Shown here: one piece after another, positions 3,986-45,270 of the stretch | How the letters are laid out: each line of letters begins with the position of its first letter | Position numbering within the stretch: position 1 is the stretch's first letter | Assembly: GCF_014274465.1 (NCBI RefSeq) | Contig: NZ_CP060394.1 | Span: 5,332,001-5,396,000 of the forward strand | DNA: 64,000 nt | Direction of reading: 5' to 3' | Source of the DNA: Alloacidobacterium dinghuense | GTDB lineage: Bacteria; Acidobacteriota; Terriglobia; Terriglobales; Acidobacteriaceae | Program-made: the position numbers and the translations under genes | The notes under the pieces: generated by a model | The model's input: only the letters and a program-made list of their open reading frames with translations | Databases searched by the model: none | Told to the model about the DNA's origin: nothing

Positions 3986-6900
3986 TTTTGCTCGCTCCTG
4001 AATTTCTGGCTTTGCGTCTTCAGCCGGGAGAACCAACCCGGCCGGCGATTTCCAGGTTGATGCAAGTAGGCAACTTTTCCCGGCACGATCAGCTCAACCT
4101 CAGTTCCCGCGGTAGATCGGCTCCATAGCTTCAGTTTCGCTCCAATTCCCTCGGCTCGCTCGCGCATTCCTGGAAGCCCGAAGTGTCCTTCCCGACCTGA
4201 ACGCAGCACCTGCGGATCGATCCCGCAGCCATCGTCTCGAATAAGAATCTGCAGGTGACTGGCTGTGTATTGTAATTCAATCTCGATGCTACTCGCCTGA
4301 GAATGCCGGAATGCATTGACCAGCGCCTCGCGTCCAATGCGGTAAACCTCGTCGCGGATCACCGGATGGAGGGCACGAGGCGAACCATCTAGGATGACAC
4401 GGTAAGCAATCTCTTTTTGAATGGCCAGTTCCTGGGGCACATGGGAAAAGGCTTGTTCGAGATTGAGAGCATCCCGACCCGATGATCGGAGACCTCGAAG
4501 GGCATCTCGTCCTTCTTCAATCACCTGTCCCATCAACTGCAAAACGCGGCTCAACAGGGGCTTTGCCGGCGAATTCTCCGAAACCTTGTCCACGGCCACA
4601 TGGAGTTGCATCGAGGCGCTGAGTAGACCCTGCAGTAGTGTGTCATGCAACTCCTGGGCAATGCGCATTCGTTCTGCCAGGCGTTCTTCGAAGCGAACAT
4701 TCATGCTGTGCGCCATTTGACGCATGCGCAGTTGATAAAAAATCCATACAACACATACCAACGCCAACACGCACGAGTATTCAAACCACCATGTCTGCCA
4801 GAATGCGGGTTGAATCTTGAAAGACTGAGTGGCTTCTGAACTGTTCCATTGCCCGTAGCTATTCGCCGCGATTACGCGAAAGCGATATGGGCCTGGATTA
4901 AGGTTTGTATACACCGCCTGTCGCGCGGCGACGGGTTGGCTCCACTCGTGATCGAAACCATCAAGCCTGTATCGATAGCGGACGCTATCGGGGATGGCAA
5001 AGCTCAATCCGACATAATCAAAGACGATTCTCTGTTGAGATGCCGGAATCCGCACTGGGTCCTGCATGTTGAATGGATTTCCATCAGCAGAGACAGCTTC
5101 GATATGAACGATGGCTGCCGCCGAATCGTTGCTCACGCGGCTTGGATCAGCCACGGAAATGCCGCGATTCAGGGAAAACCAGATACGCCCGTGGCGATCG
5201 GTCACGACGGAGCGATCCCGTCTCACGCCCTCATCTCCCTGCAGGCCATCTGCAAGCCGATACTCATGAACATCCTCTTCGTGAATCGCGCCATGCAGGA
5301 ATTGATCTCGAATGATTCTGAGTACGTGATTCGAAGTAGCGATCCATAAAGCTCCGCCACTGTCTTGGGCGAATCCGAAGATGGGGTCCCGCAAGGACTC
5401 TGGAACTGGATGAGGGCCGATAATTTGGTTGCCACGCATCGCAGCAAGACCATTCGCGGTTCCAATCCACAAAACGCCTCCCGCACCCGGCAGAAGGCAA
5501 ATCACATCATCGGATGGCAATCCATCCTTCACCGCATAAGTACGCCAGTGGCCGTCGATAAACGCATTCAAGCCGCCGGGGGTTGCAAACCACATGGTTC
5601 CATCGGAGCTTTCCGCGATCGAAGTAACGGTGTTCGACGCCAGGCCTTCAGCGGTTGTATAGGTGGTGAATCGGCCATTGTTGAGTCGGCTCACACCTCC
5701 ACTAAGAGTCCCTGCCCACACGGTTCCGTCAGCACTCTCATAGACTGAGTAGACGCTGTTTTGCGCGAGCCCGCGTTCCGTGGTGTATGTCTCTGACGTT
5801 AAGATGCCTCCCTGCACGCGCAGATGGGTAAGTCCGCCGCGCTGCCTTCCAATCCAGAGATCGTCTTTATTGCCGACAATCGAATAGACGATATCGTCGC
5901 CTATCCCGGCAGTCTTTACTTGTCCAATCTTTTCGCTCCTCATGGAATAGAGGCCACCGCTGGATGGGGCAATCCATGCACGGTCATCTGAATCGACATA
6001 GATTGGGCCGCTTCGATCGGACGGCAGACCTTGAGCAGTCGAATACGTCATGAACAATCCATCGCGGAGTCGTTCCAAGCCGTCGGTATTCCCAACCCAA
6101 AGGTTGCCTTCACGGTCCTCGAGCAGGGCGGCGACAGCTTCCCTGGATTCTTGACTATGTACGTCAGACAGAACAACTCCTTGCGAGTTGAATCGCAACA
6201 GCCCACGCGCCGTGCCCACCCACAGATTGGAGTCGCGGTCCTGCACCAGGCTCAACACCTGAACATGGCTCAATGGTGGCGGAACATTGCTTGCGGAAAT
6301 CCTGGTTCCATCCCACTGCGCAACACCGTTGTCGGTGCCGATCCACATTTTGCCGTCTTTCACGGGAAGAAGACAATTGATCTTCTTGTCAGGCAGTCCT
6401 TCGGTTGCTGCAACAGCTTGGCCATTCTCTACATAGAAGAGCCCGTTGTCCCGAGTACCCATCCAGATCTTTCCATCCGAAGTTTCTGCGAGCGAAAATA
6501 CCAGCAGATTCGAAGGCAGATTCCTGAATTCGAGCACCTCAAGCTTTCCGTTGCGGTAGCGGAGCACCGGGTGTAGCAAAGTTGAGAGCAACATCCCACC
6601 TTTGTTTGCTCTGGACATGGCGGTGACGTTCGACGAAGGCGTTGCAATACCCGATATGACTGTTTCGAATTTTCCGTCGTGGTAGCGAAGCACACCTGCG
6701 CCGGGCAGCCGTATCCACATATCTCCGTCAACATCAGTTTTAAGCCCAAGCACGTGGTTAACGTGTGACAACGCCGGATTCAGTTGCTCTGCGTCGAGAA
6801 AGTTTCGTCCATCAAATCGAAACAAGCCCTTTTCAGCGCCGATCCACAGATATCCATCCCCTGTCTGAGCAATGGCATTGACCTGTCCACCAGGAAATCC

Positions 6901-41580: not shown

Positions 41581-42762
41581 TTAGTACTTCGGCAGCTTGG
41601 GATCGACGTCCGTAGCCCAGCCAGTGATGCCACCTGCCAAATTCACGACATTCTTGAAGCCGCTTTTCTGCAGGAACTCAGCCGCACGCTGACTGCGACC
41701 TCCAGTCTTGCAGTGGATGACGATCTCGCGATTGGGATCGAGTTCGTTGAGGCGATTCGGAAGGTCGCCGAGCGGAATGAGGGGCGCGCCGATGTTCACG
41801 ATCTGGTATTCGTGGGGCTCGCGCACGTCGAGAACGAAGACATCTTCGCCAGCATCGAGGCGACGCTTCAATTCAATGGGGGTAATTTGGGGGATTCCGT
41901 TTTGCATGGCTGCTGGTTTCTCCTCGGGGACGATACCACAGAACTGTTGGTAGTCGATGAGCCTCTTCACTGTCGGGTACTCGCCGCAGACTGGGCACTC
42001 GGGGTTCTTGCGCAGCTTCAGTTCGCGGAACTTCATGCCGAGCGAATCGACGAGCAGGAGGCGTCCGATGAGCGGATCCCCTTTGCCGAGGATCAGCTTG
42101 ATGACCTCCGTTGCCTGAATCACGCCGAGCAGGCCGGGCAGGATGCCGAGCACGCCGCCTTCTGCGCATGAGGGAACAAGTCCCGGCGGTGGCGGCTCGG
42201 GATAAAGGCACCGGTAGCAAGGGCCGTCTTTGGTCGCGAAAACGCTGGCCTGCCCTTCAAAGCGGAAGATCGAAGCGTAGGCGTTTGGCTTGTGGCCACT
42301 GAGCACGCAGGCGTCATTGACGAGGTAGCGTGTCGGGAAGTTGTCGGTGCCGTCGGCGACGATGTCGTAATCCTTAATGATCTCAAGCGCGTTGGCGCTG
42401 GTGAGCATCGTTTCGTGCTTCACGATGTTCAGATACGGATTGAGCGCCTTCAGCTTTTCGGCTGCCGAGTCAATCTTGGGGCGGCCCACGTCGTTGGTGC
42501 TGTGAATGATCTGGCGCTGTAGATTGCTTTCGTCGACTACGTCGAAGTCGACGAGGCCAAGCGTGCCCACTCCGGCGGCGGCGAGATAGTAGCTGAGCGG
42601 GGCGCCCAAGCCACCGGTGCCGACGCAGAGGACCTTTGCAGCTTTGAGCTTTTGCTGGCCTTCGAGTCCGACTTCGGGCAGGATGAGGTGTCGCGAATAG
42701 CGGGCGATTTCGGCGTTATCGAGTTGTGGCAGCGCCACTTTTTCTTCGGTGACAGTTGGCAT
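41581..42762 (-). CDS. moeZ: Adenylyltransferase/sulfurtransferase, MoeZ-type (ThiF + rhodanese)
   Basis: A 393-residue E1-like enzyme. The ThiF/MoeB domain has the nucleotide motif VGTGGLGAPLSYYLAAAGVG, the arginine-containing ESNLQRQIIHS, DGTDNFPTRYL and a zinc CxxC (CPVC). A C-terminal rhodanese domain (residues about 290-393) carries the active-site Cys in IHCKTGGRSQ. Such two-domain enzymes adenylate the C-terminal glycine of a ubiquitin-like carrier and convert it to a thiocarboxylate. The likely partner is the carrier at 43506-43781. AAGGA precedes the ATG. The thiocarboxylate could also serve molybdopterin or thiamine synthesis, but the neighbours favour cysteine. Confidence 0.92.
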   Translation of the reverse strand: MPTVTEEKVALPQLDNAEIARYSRHLILPEVGLEGQQKLKAAKVLCVGTGGLGAPLSYYLAAAGVGTLGLVDFDVVDESNLQRQIIHSTNDVGRPKIDSAAEKLKALNPYLNIVKHETMLTSANALEIIKDYDIVADGTDNFPTRYLVNDACVLSGHKPNAYASIFRFEGQASVFATKDGPCYRCLYPEPPPPGLVPSCAEGGVLGILPGLLGVIQATEVIKLILGKGDPLIGRLLLVDSLGMKFRELKLRKNPECPVCGEYPTVKRLIDYQQFCGIVPEEKPAAMQNGIPQITPIELKRRLDAGEDVFVLDVREPHEYQIVNIGAPLIPLGDLPNRLNELDPNREIVIHCKTGGRSQRAAEFLQKSGFKNVVNLAGGITGWATDVDPKLPKY

Positions 42763-42771
42763 CTTGTTTCC

Positions 42772-43392
42772 TTAATTTTTCTTTACTTCACTGATTTCTA
42801 CACTGGAGAGAATTTTCTCCAGGCTGGTGTGAACTTGTGCAAGCTCGCTGTTCGTTATTGGGCGCGTGTTGTCGACCAGGCCGGGACAAAGGGTCACCAC
42901 TGCGAGGTCGAACAAGTAGCAGGTTCCGTTTTTGTGGGTAGCGTAAATATCTTCTGAATACGAATGACACATCCCTGCGCTGGCAGTCTGCGCGTGGGCA
43001 AAGCTCATGCCGTTGATTTCTTCTGTCTCAAGCATTTTCGCATTTGCGTCACGCTGCAGCACGGACTTCAGGCATTCATCCGTGGAAGTCGCCTGCCTGT
43101 TCGCGTATACGAATTCGGCGCCTACCAGGTTCGTTCGTGGATATGGATTGTAGCCGCAATTATTACTACTGAAGTAGACAAAGCCACGCGGCGGGTTGTC
43201 CGGCGATGTGATGCTAGTGGGTGTGTAAAACTCAATGCTCTCGTTGTAATACCACTTCGCCGGATAGCGAAAACTAACTCGATAGTCCGGGTCAGAGAAT
43301 TGCATTGACGACGGTGTTGCGAGGGTGACCTGCTGCGCTTGCGATGCAAGCGCAGTGCTAAGAAGCAGCGAAATCACCTTCAGCATTCGCAA
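42772..43392 (-). CDS. Secreted hypothetical protein inside the cysteine cluster
   Basis: A roughly 206-residue protein with an N-terminal signal peptide (MLKVISLLLSTALASQAQQ). The mature part contains SDPDYRVSFRYPAKWYY, a pattern seen in small secreted proteins with a PsbP-like or DUF1795-type beginning, and several cysteines (NNCGYNPY, TDECL, GMCHSY, TLCPG) that may form disulfides. No family is recognised with confidence. TTG at 43392 has AAAGGA seven bases upstream; an ATG two codons later is an alternative. It lies nine bases before the moeZ-type gene. Confidence 0.65.
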   Translation of the reverse strand: MRMLKVISLLLSTALASQAQQVTLATPSSMQFSDPDYRVSFRYPAKWYYNESIEFYTPTSITSPDNPPRGFVYFSSNNCGYNPYPRTNLVGAEFVYANRQATSTDECLKSVLQRDANAKMLETEEINGMSFAHAQTASAGMCHSYSEDIYATHKNGTCYLFDLAVVTLCPGLVDNTRPITNSELAQVHTSLEKILSSVEISEVKKN

Positions 43393-43505: not shown

Positions 43506-43781
43506 CTATCTTCCACCAGCAATCGACGGGATAATAGACAACGAATCAGCCTCGGACACCGTTGTCCCTTCTTTTTCCGGTAGGTAGCGCACGTCCTCGT
43601 CGTTCAGATAAACATTCACGAAAGCGCGCAGTTTTCCTTCGTCCGAATAAAGGTGTTTCCTTAAGTCAGGATGCTGCGAGGTAAGGGCGCTTAGAGCTTC
43701 GCCTACGGTTTGAGCATCGACCTGCACTGCATCCTGCTTGTCGGCGTATACGCGCAGCGGAGTGGGAATGAAAATTTTCAT
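43506..43781 (-). CDS. Ubiquitin-like sulfur carrier, CysO/MoaD-like, with C-terminal Gly-Gly-Arg
   Basis: A 91-residue beta-grasp protein of the ThiS/MoaD/CysO group (MKIFIPTPLRVY, VGEALSALTSQHPDLRKHL, FVNVYLNDEDVRYL, GTTVSEADSLSIIPSIAGGR). In the family the C-terminus is a free Gly-Gly that becomes a thiocarboxylate; here the stop codon follows an extra Arg91. The adjacent JAMM peptidase could trim it, as the JAMM protein QbsD does for QbsE. The set with CysM, Mec-like peptidase and MoeZ supports a sulfide donor for cysteine. AAGGA precedes the ATG. No codon ambiguity was seen at the end: GGT GGA AGA TAG. Confidence 0.88.
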   Translation of the reverse strand: MKIFIPTPLRVYADKQDAVQVDAQTVGEALSALTSQHPDLRKHLYSDEGKLRAFVNVYLNDEDVRYLPEKEGTTVSEADSLSIIPSIAGGR

Positions 43782-43868
43782 AGCAGAAATCCTTTTTGTA
43801 GTGAGGTTGCGATAGGTTCAGGCACCGACGGGTCTACGCCCACCGGGCAAGAGGCGGCAAGCCGGCGA

Positions 43869-44321
43869 TCAACATCGCCCGGCTACCAGTTCCTCAACCT
43901 GGATCGTTTCGTCCTCAAAGGATTTGTCGTCTTCACTCGTTCCCGTCAACCGGAACGAGTTTGTCTGTTGCGCTGCGCCTTTTTCGACCGCGGTGATGAC
44001 ATAGGAGCAGCCGAGCCAGTGCGCTTCGGCGAAATCGGTCATCGACCACTGCGCCGGATGGTCCGGGTGCGAGTGGTAAAAGCCGACAATGTCCAGCCCC
44101 CGCTCGCGTCCCTGCCGCTGGATGCGAATGAGTTCCTGCGGCGCGATGTGATAGCGGTTGTGAGCCGAATCGGTCCGGGTGTTGCTCGCGCGCAATGCAT
44201 CTTCAACGACATTCATGCCGTCATGGGAGCGGCCCAGCAGCACACCGCAACACTCATGCGGATAGGTCTCTTCCCCATGTTTCCGCATTGCGTTGTAGAT
44301 GGATTCGCTGAGCTTAAGCAT
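43869..44321 (-). CDS. mec: JAMM/Mov34 metallopeptidase, Mec-like
   Basis: A 150-residue JAMM domain with all metal-site residues: Glu23 (PHECCGVLLG), His83 and His85 (YHSHPDHPAQW), Ser93 and Asp96 (SMTD). In mycobacteria the relative Mec hydrolyses the CysO-cysteine adduct to release cysteine. Here it may also have to remove the C-terminal Arg of the carrier. Its ATG overlaps the CysM-type gene by eight bases (ATGCTTAA), so the two are coupled. The carrier gene starts 87 bases downstream. Confidence 0.92.
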   Translation of the reverse strand: MLKLSESIYNAMRKHGEETYPHECCGVLLGRSHDGMNVVEDALRASNTRTDSAHNRYHIAPQELIRIQRQGRERGLDIVGFYHSHPDHPAQWSMTDFAEAHWLGCSYVITAVEKGAAQQTNSFRLTGTSEDDKSFEDETIQVEELVAGRC

Positions 44322-45270
44322 CGGCCTGTTCTTCCTCCCAGAAGCGTTCGCTTAAATACTTGTCCGCCGAATCGGGCAAAATGGTCACGATCACGGCTTC
44401 ACGTCCTGCCGCGGCTTCTTCCTCAGCCACGCGCAGTGATGCTGCAACTGCTGCTCCAGAGGAAACGCCGACGAGCAGCCCCTCCGTCCGCGCAAGGCGC
44501 TTAGCCATACGATACGCGGCTTCGGTCTCAATCTCTACATCGCGGTCAGCAAGGGACGGATCGTAGATCGGCGGTACGATGGCGGTCGCCATATGTTTCA
44601 GACCTTCGAGGCCGTTGAAAGGCGAGTCCGGCTGCATGGAGATGCACTGGATTTCAGGGTTCAATTCTTTCAGACGGCGCGTGGTTCCTACAAATGTGCC
44701 GCTGGTGCCAAGTCCGGCGATGAAGTGGGTCAACTGGCCTGAAGTCTGCTTCCAGATTTCATTGGCGGTGCCGTTGTAATGTGCCTGCCAGTTGGCATTG
44801 TTGCCATACTGGTCGGCGTAGTAATACTTTTCGGGATCAGCCGCCGCCAACGCGCGAGCTTTACGAATTGCTCCATCTGAGCCGTCGTTTGGGTCAGTCC
44901 AGACCACATTTGCGCCGTAGGCGCTGAGAATGCGCTTGCGCTCGGGAGAGACATTTGCCGGTACGCAAAGTGTGACCGGAAAGCCCATGGCCGCTCCCAG
45001 CATGGCGTAAGCGATGCCAGTGTTGCCGCTGGTGGCATCAAGCAGATGCTGGCCTCTGCCCAGCTTGCCCTGTTTCATAGCGGCAGTCACGATGGAACAG
45101 GCGGCGCGATCCTTTACTGACCCGCCGGGATTCGCCCACTCGGCCTTGGCCAAAAGCTGCACTCCAGGCAAATTGGTCGCTAGTTGCTCCAGACGCAGCA
45201 AGGGCGTATTCCCGATGCGCTCCAGAAGCGTCGAGCCCAATGACTGGACCTGGGGTGAATGTGTTGCCAT
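44314..45270 (-). CDS. cysM: PLP-dependent cysteine synthase, CysM-type
   Basis: A 318-residue fold-type II PLP enzyme. Lys53 in NPGGSVKDRAA binds PLP; TSGNTGIAYAM is the asparagine loop, and GLGTSGTFVGTTRRLKE the phosphate-binding loop. It is the first gene of the cluster, with mec, carrier and moeZ-type genes after it, so it is likely to use a protein thiocarboxylate as mycobacterial CysM does, with O-phosphoserine or O-acetylserine as co-substrate. Which one cannot be settled from the sequence by eye. ATG start; a divergent promoter region with the 45366 gene lies upstream. Confidence 0.92.
   Translation of the reverse strand: MATHSPQVQSLGSTLLERIGNTPLLRLEQLATNLPGVQLLAKAEWANPGGSVKDRAACSIVTAAMKQGKLGRGQHLLDATSGNTGIAYAMLGAAMGFPVTLCVPANVSPERKRILSAYGANVVWTDPNDGSDGAIRKARALAAADPEKYYYADQYGNNANWQAHYNGTANEIWKQTSGQLTHFIAGLGTSGTFVGTTRRLKELNPEIQCISMQPDSPFNGLEGLKHMATAIVPPIYDPSLADRDVEIETEAAYRMAKRLARTEGLLVGVSSGAAVAASLRVAEEEAAAGREAVIVTILPDSADKYLSERFWEEEQADA

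Follow-up and report, generated by a model that had tools for sequence, protein, structure and literature searches.

The window, by which we mean the whole 64,000-nucleotide stretch analysed here, comes from a genome assembled as a single 6.27 Mb contig and carries on its minus strand, in this order, genes for a cysteine synthase, a JAMM metallopeptidase, a small sulfur carrier, an uncharacterised protein of 206 amino acids and a MoeZ-type ThiF-rhodanese protein. The features are the following.

44314..45270, minus strand: cysteine synthase of the CysM/CysK type, its 3' end overlapping the start of the JAMM gene by 8 nt
43869..44321, minus strand: JAMM/MPN+ metallopeptidase of 150 aa with a complete metal site (Pfam Prok-JAB)
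43506..43781, minus strand: CysO-like ubiquitin-fold sulfur carrier of 91 aa with a Gly-Gly-Arg end (open reading frame, Pfam ThiS and 3dwg_C profile match)
43506..43511, minus strand: Arg91 codon AGA and TAG stop, a one-residue cap past the Gly-Gly, read from the DNA
42772..43392, minus strand: uncharacterised open reading frame of 206 aa, between the carrier and the MoeZ-type E1 gene
41581..42762, minus strand: MoeZ-type E1, a ThiF domain with a C-terminal rhodanese domain

Sulfur carriers are textbook proteins with a free Gly-Gly end. The carrier of the window ends in SIIPSIAGGR, its last codons being GGT GGA AGA TAG on the reverse complement; it matches Pfam ThiS with 42.1 bits and, in a profile comparison, chain 3dwg_C with E 3.4e-25. 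The latter chain, which we take to be CysO of Mycobacterium tuberculosis, ends at GG, whereas the window carrier is capped, which would give its JAMM an added first job. The JAMM itself matches Pfam Prok-JAB with E 6.3e-25, and its site residues E23, H83, H85, S93 and D96 are without variation in a nine-row alignment. A carrier ending in Gly-Gly-Arg beside a JAMM with an intact metal site, the starting observation of the sequence-only reading, is thus borne out by the open reading frame, the DNA, Pfam and the alignment. The adjoining cysteine synthase, a PLP enzyme, is closer in score to 2v03 (218.8 bits; presumably Escherichia coli CysM) than to 3dwg_A (191.4 bits; presumably M. tuberculosis CysM); in a CysO-type system, this enzyme uses O-phosphoserine together with the thiocarboxylate of the carrier. 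The 206-aa frame has no match in Pfam or NCBIfam and an N-terminus that looks signal-like by eye; in the same position, a relative (L052) has a carrier–moeZ gap of 159 nt. With homologues of the carrier, the cysteine synthase, the JAMM and the E1-rhodanese, the locus is like the M. tuberculosis CysO–CysM–Mec–MoeZ cysteine pathway, in which Mec is described as hydrolysing the carrier–cysteine adduct (PMC3227635). Iyer et al. (2006) describe the same four genes, namely ThiS/MoaD, E1-rhodanese, JAB and cysteine synthase, as operon type 4c and list it for an acidobacterium (PMC1779556). Among 46 loci of relatives (L032–L048 and L052–L080), 31 contain all four in the order cysM–JAMM–carrier–moeZ, the commonest arrangement and, but for the 206-aa frame, also that of the window, and in the remaining 15, one or more of the four is absent within the stretch or contig.

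Comparison with the closest relatives shows that the cap is conserved and the arginine is not. Past the GG, two genomes of the same genus have WD (G003) and C (G002), and two further members of the family have Y (G020) and D (G036); the carriers of G003, G002 and G020 are 87–90% identical to that of the window over the matched part. Any residue or residues past the Gly-Gly are thus the shared feature, and a significance of the terminal Arg itself, as in the sequence-only reading, is not supported. A scan of the named genome collection returned 503 relatives; residues past the GG were present in 80 of the best 80 (78 acidobacterial, with one locus labelled Acidimicrobiia, L143, and one labelled Ignavibacteriales, L185), and close relatives with a plain GG, named in advance as evidence against trimming, numbered 0 among them. 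Pooled with the loci of further relatives and freed of exact duplicates, they gave 185 carriers, 150 of which pass a cut of at least 47% identity in the matched part with the GG present. Of these non-redundant close carriers, 149 are capped: 119 have free tails of 1–32 residues (64 of them of 1–3 residues) and 30 continue in frame into the MoeZ-type E1, with one of these fusions cut by a contig end. The sole plain-GG carrier (L036) adjoins a JAMM that is itself cut by a contig end. A JAMM lies in the same locus for 26 of the 30 fused and 101 of the 119 free-tailed carriers, and the full motif is found in 122 of the 128 such JAMMs, the other six comprising five cut by a contig or stretch end and one with Thr for Ser (L046). 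The 35 paralogous or distant carriers outside the 150 are more mixed, 26 being capped and 9 ending in plain GG (L049, L085, L087, L089, L090, L100, L106, L107 and L109); in the tail counts, this row set also takes in L048, a carrier–E1 fusion just below the identity cut. All nine plain carriers come from genomes with a JAMM, so that capping is optional; two plain-GG carriers, L036 and the distant L106, adjoin a JAMM. The GG of ThiS and MoaD is adenylated as a C-terminus, and an internal GG does not offer one; if these carriers work as the known ones do, the fusions would have to be cut. As to the origin of the caps, loss of a stop codon leaves no simple signature: the Arg codons past the GG (CGC 11, CGG 8, AGG 4, CGA 2 and AGA 1) are not mainly single-step neighbours of TGA, and the AGA of the window, which does fit a stop-codon mutation, is a single case.

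Capping extends beyond the cysteine operon. A Pfam ThiS search of the source genome found four carriers of the family, all four capped: the window carrier by R, a paralogue by a Cys-rich tail of 25 residues, ThiS by the end VGGGRP, and MoaD by fusion to what we take from its sequence to be MoaE, with the GG inside. The same genome has one JAMM gene, that of the window, on which the Prok-JAB search and our own JAMM profile agree. ThiS, meant to serve as a plain-GG control within the class, failed in that use by being capped too and was made the main test instead. In 41 relatives searched for ThiS, 31 rows were read, 23 capped and 8 plain; the corresponding 30 MoaD rows comprise 26 with a long MoaE-like extension, one with a 2-residue tail and 3 plain. 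Six loci (L252, L313, L315, L316, L335 and L352) have ThiS fused in frame, GG inside, to a domain that we recognise from its sequence as presumably ThiG-like.

Across the phylum, several kinds of carrier are often capped in the presence of a JAMM and almost never in its absence. We searched 149 genomes for JAMM, ThiS, MoaD and CysO-like carriers, taking a strong match (E 1e-17 or better) as presence and keeping apart six genomes with weak matches of E about 2e-8 or worse (G061, G084, G158, G170, G177 and G200). ThiS could be read in 103 of the 104 genomes with a match, the partial match of G159 staying outside the count, and was capped in 29 of 55 genomes with a strong JAMM versus 1 of the other 48 (Fisher 2.4e-9). 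This count places the four weak-JAMM genomes that have ThiS among the JAMM-less; without them, the latter side becomes 1 of 44 (Fisher 8.7e-9). For MoaD, 71 of the 108 matching genomes were read, the JAMM-less rows being chosen mostly for long open frames and hence the likeliest exceptions; the carrier was capped in 27 of 38 JAMM genomes versus 1 of 27 readable JAMM-less ones (26 plain and G197 capped), with a Fisher value of 1.7e-7 when G100, left out of the counts as unreadable for a contig ending before the GG, is taken as capped. Among five weak-JAMM genomes, one has a capped MoaD, a MoaD–MoaE-like fusion in G084. Of the genomes lacking a strong JAMM, 23 had a carrier matching the CysO-like profile; among the 24 carriers read from 20 of these, several of them distant matches, 23 ended in plain GG. 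The 30 best-scoring carriers of the sample, 29 of them from JAMM genomes and one from G197, were all capped; the weaker matches in JAMM genomes lie mostly outside this reading. Capping thus occurs only where a JAMM is encoded, with the exceptions of G197 and, for MoaD, the weak match G084. The former is the single exception in the ThiS, MoaD and CysO-like tests, its CysO-like carrier being a fusion; the assembly is 91% complete in about 650 contigs with no JAMM found in it, and the stretch with the carrier stops 655 nt upstream of it, presumably at a contig end, with no JAMM within. We predict that a JAMM is encoded in the missing part of that genome. One genome has a second JAMM match, immediately upstream of a MoaD–MoaE-like fusion gene (L448, G068:C4), where one would be expected if fusions require a JAMM.

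Genomes that share ancestry are not independent samples, and a count by family is the better guard: ThiS capping is then found in 12 of 25 families with versus 1 of 20 without a JAMM (p 0.002), some families appearing on both sides. It could be argued that JAMM and capped carriers merely occur in the same clades by shared ancestry, with no causal link, as both traits are clustered and a phylogenetic pair test is underpowered. On a tree of ThiS cores, which are short sequences, the test found 3–4 independent pairs on supported branches, and its sign test cannot reach significance with so few supported pairs, although nearly all differing pairings are in the expected direction. Parsimony on the same tree, however, requires at least 14 changes of capping and 16 of JAMM, three carrier families agree with a single exception that is capped in all three, and families in which JAMM and JAMM-less genomes occur together are consistent with the link (in f30, ThiS of JAMM genomes is capped in three and plain in two cases, and that of JAMM-less genomes capped in 0 of 2). 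We therefore regard shared ancestry alone as an unlikely explanation.

The tails themselves carry what may be the fingerprint of a peptidase. The 280 tails pooled from CysO-like, paralogous or distant, ThiS and MoaD carriers contain no case of Pro directly past the GG, while Pro occupies the next position in 30 of 233 (Fisher 1.8e-11); the count remains 0 in the 234 distinct tails. As a background, Pro follows 96 of 2291 GG pairs in other long open reading frames of the same loci, and the binomial probability of its absence is 6e-6 for the 280 tails and 4e-5 for the distinct ones. Peptidases in general cleave poorly before Pro, and the pattern is what a peptidase site would give, indirectly pointing to cleavage after the Gly-Gly. 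His is likewise missing from the first position (background 78 of 2291, 3.4%), which indicates a restriction not due to the Pro rule alone; the commonest first residues are Ser, Ala, Arg and Cys. The peptidase could in principle be another one, for example a carboxypeptidase, with the JAMM only freeing cysteine from the carrier as Mec does, and the 64 of 119 free tails that have 1–3 residues would be within a carboxypeptidase's reach. Whole-protein fusions to MoeZ, MoaE or the ThiG-like domain, on the other hand, require an endopeptidase, and the capping of ThiS and MoaD tracks the presence of the JAMM; a different trimming enzyme thus seems improbable to us.

We consider it highly probable, judging from these sequence patterns, that the carrier is an inactive precursor whose cap is trimmed by the neighbouring JAMM, and probable that the JAMM has become a general carrier maturase in such acidobacteria. 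The carrier would be produced in the inactive form, and the JAMM would cleave after Gly90, so that the Arg is lost and the Gly-Gly becomes the C-terminus; the MoeZ-type E1 would then adenylate this end and, with its rhodanese domain, sulfurate it, and the cysteine synthase would take the resulting carrier thiocarboxylate. The same JAMM probably also hydrolyses the carrier–cysteine adduct, as both reactions cut the same Gly–X bond, and a double role in trimming and Mec-like release of cysteine is plausible by analogy. With a tail of a single Cys, the newly made protein would be chemically the same as the carrier–cysteine adduct, and one activity could serve both steps. In trans, one JAMM would act on ThiS and MoaD–MoaE, and CysO-like, MoaD and ThiS carriers would gain tails and fusions because a peptidase removes them. 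Trimming in the manner of QbsD, a JAMM that reportedly removes residues past the GG of QbsE in thioquinolobactin synthesis, had been proposed in the sequence-only reading; as a prediction, it is well supported by the capping that tracks the JAMM in three families, the internal GG of natural carrier–E1 fusions and the first position devoid of Pro. The cap would then be no special signal. The simplest reading, which we offer as such rather than as a result, would be that the JAMM makes caps harmless, that caps then accumulate and that the JAMM becomes indispensable. We lean, with some reserve, towards the stronger form in which several carriers, ThiS included, all require the JAMM of the cysteine operon for their maturation and the caps have accrued without benefit.

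A regulated switch, in which the JAMM trims a pool of capped carrier held back until cysteine is needed, would give the caps a purpose. The JAMM does lie within the cysteine operon (cysM–JAMM–carrier–moeZ), and some operons may sense cysteine, to judge from leader-like frames rich in cysteine codons between the carrier and moeZ. The free tails consist of Cys to 14.8% (107 of 725 residues), compared with 0.03% in the carrier cores and 2.9% in downstream frames, and their Cys codons are TGT 69 and TGC 38, against TGT 657 and TGC 2719 in long open reading frames. Of 114 split operons, 23 have a run of at least three Cys within eight codons, either inside the tail or in a small frame of its own before moeZ; the reverse strand gives 5 of 114, and 50 dinucleotide shuffles average 2.6 with a maximum of 6. 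The runs lie 0–120 nt past the carrier GG (L068, L073, L074, L135, L136, L158 and others), and 11 of 12 separate frames end 43–61 nt before moeZ. No run of this kind follows the carrier in the window. Since the runs lie in either the tail or a frame of its own, we rejected them as a part of the trimming and treat them as a leader-peptide-like feature: anything past the GG would be removed, so the last codons of a carrier could double as a leader peptide. They resemble the cysteine-responsive polycysteine frames of mycobacteria (Canestrari et al. 2020, as cited and briefly described in PMC9094748 and cited in PMC13236596), and by this analogy, they are possibly cysteine-responsive leader peptides. 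Hiding of the moeZ start by base pairing with the poly-Cys RNA was not supported at 22 loci, the mean pairing energies being -12.7 kcal/mol for the locus's own sequences, -12.6 kcal/mol for synonymous recodings and -14.3 kcal/mol for other loci. As for the switch itself, one would expect its mask to be conserved, but the tails seem to be tolerated, being conserved in neither length nor sequence and ranging from a single residue to an entire enzyme; L036 has a JAMM yet no cap, ThiS ends in plain GG in 26 of the 55 JAMM genomes, and capping in these genomes also affects the carriers for thiamine and molybdopterin. The switch on cysteine synthesis envisaged in the sequence-only reading is therefore not supported, and we rate it as very unlikely. 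A last alternative, that a local mutation gave the Arg to a carrier either decaying or working uncut, fits the other residues found past the GG of its nearest relatives but is scarcely credible: all four closest relatives are capped, the matched part of the carrier is 87–90% identical to its counterparts in G003, G002 and G020, and its GG and operon are intact.

The maturation of a carrier by a JAMM has precedents as single cases. Besides QbsD, HcyD is said to trim the residues past the GG of HcyS in the methionine synthesis of Wolinella; both systems reportedly have one dedicated carrier, whereas here the tails are variable and several capped carriers are present per genome. DRJAMM cleaves the MoaD–MoaE fusion of Deinococcus radiodurans so that a C-terminal Gly remains, and MoaD–MoaE activity depends on DRJAMM (PMC8832034); the peptidase has one fusion substrate, with no thiamine or cysteine carrier in the accessible part of that report, whereas the acidobacteria have several carriers. 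CsJAMM cleaves SAMP precursors in Caldiarchaeum, acting on archaeal carriers alongside a separate ubiquitin system with its own peptidase (PMC6043591). Iyer et al. (2006) made a general proposal that JAB proteins release ThiS or MoaD from fusions and found operons for thiamine and molybdopterin to lack JAB; in the parts of that study considered here, neither systematic caps nor a dependence of capped ThiS on JAMM is described (PMC1779556). In the open-access full texts searched, no paper turned up that reports ThiS with a cap or connects capping to JAMM across a phylum, which is weak evidence of novelty; tentatively, a phylum-wide layer of JAMM-removed caps that includes ThiS appears to be new.

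Many members of a large soil phylum thus break the rule of the free Gly-Gly across several pathways. If the JAMM is indeed the maturase, the synthesis of cysteine, thiamine and molybdenum cofactor would all depend on a single small metallopeptidase, a hidden essential step, and a JAMM deletion strain is predicted to need thiamine. Bacteria would then have a counterpart to the precursors from which eukaryotic ubiquitin-like proteins are matured, and the capped carriers would offer a natural example, open to counting, of drift creating a dependence, maturation having become necessary through tolerance and not by design.

The paralogous carrier has features of its own. At locus L092 (G000:C1, near 6204115), its gene (5986–6342) overlaps a threonine-synthase-like gene at 4731–6002. 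Of the 26 paralogue loci, 25 have a match to the latter gene, in 24 cases immediately upstream; possibly, the carrier feeds a route that forms homocysteine from O-phosphohomoserine. Its tail has a conserved Cys-rich motif resembling CCSYCGQEDCTC in six genomes (L092–L096 and L099) and, being conserved unlike the other tails, may have a function such as metal binding. Carriers were also seen in the plasmid collection: one of Aliarcobacter, with an M67 peptidase and a cysteine synthase, ends in GGI (L426, 3492–3767), one of Burkholderia ends in GGRS (L427, 3495–3764) and one of Nonomuraea ends in plain GG (L425, 3501–3764), the first two indicating that caps are not confined to acidobacteria.
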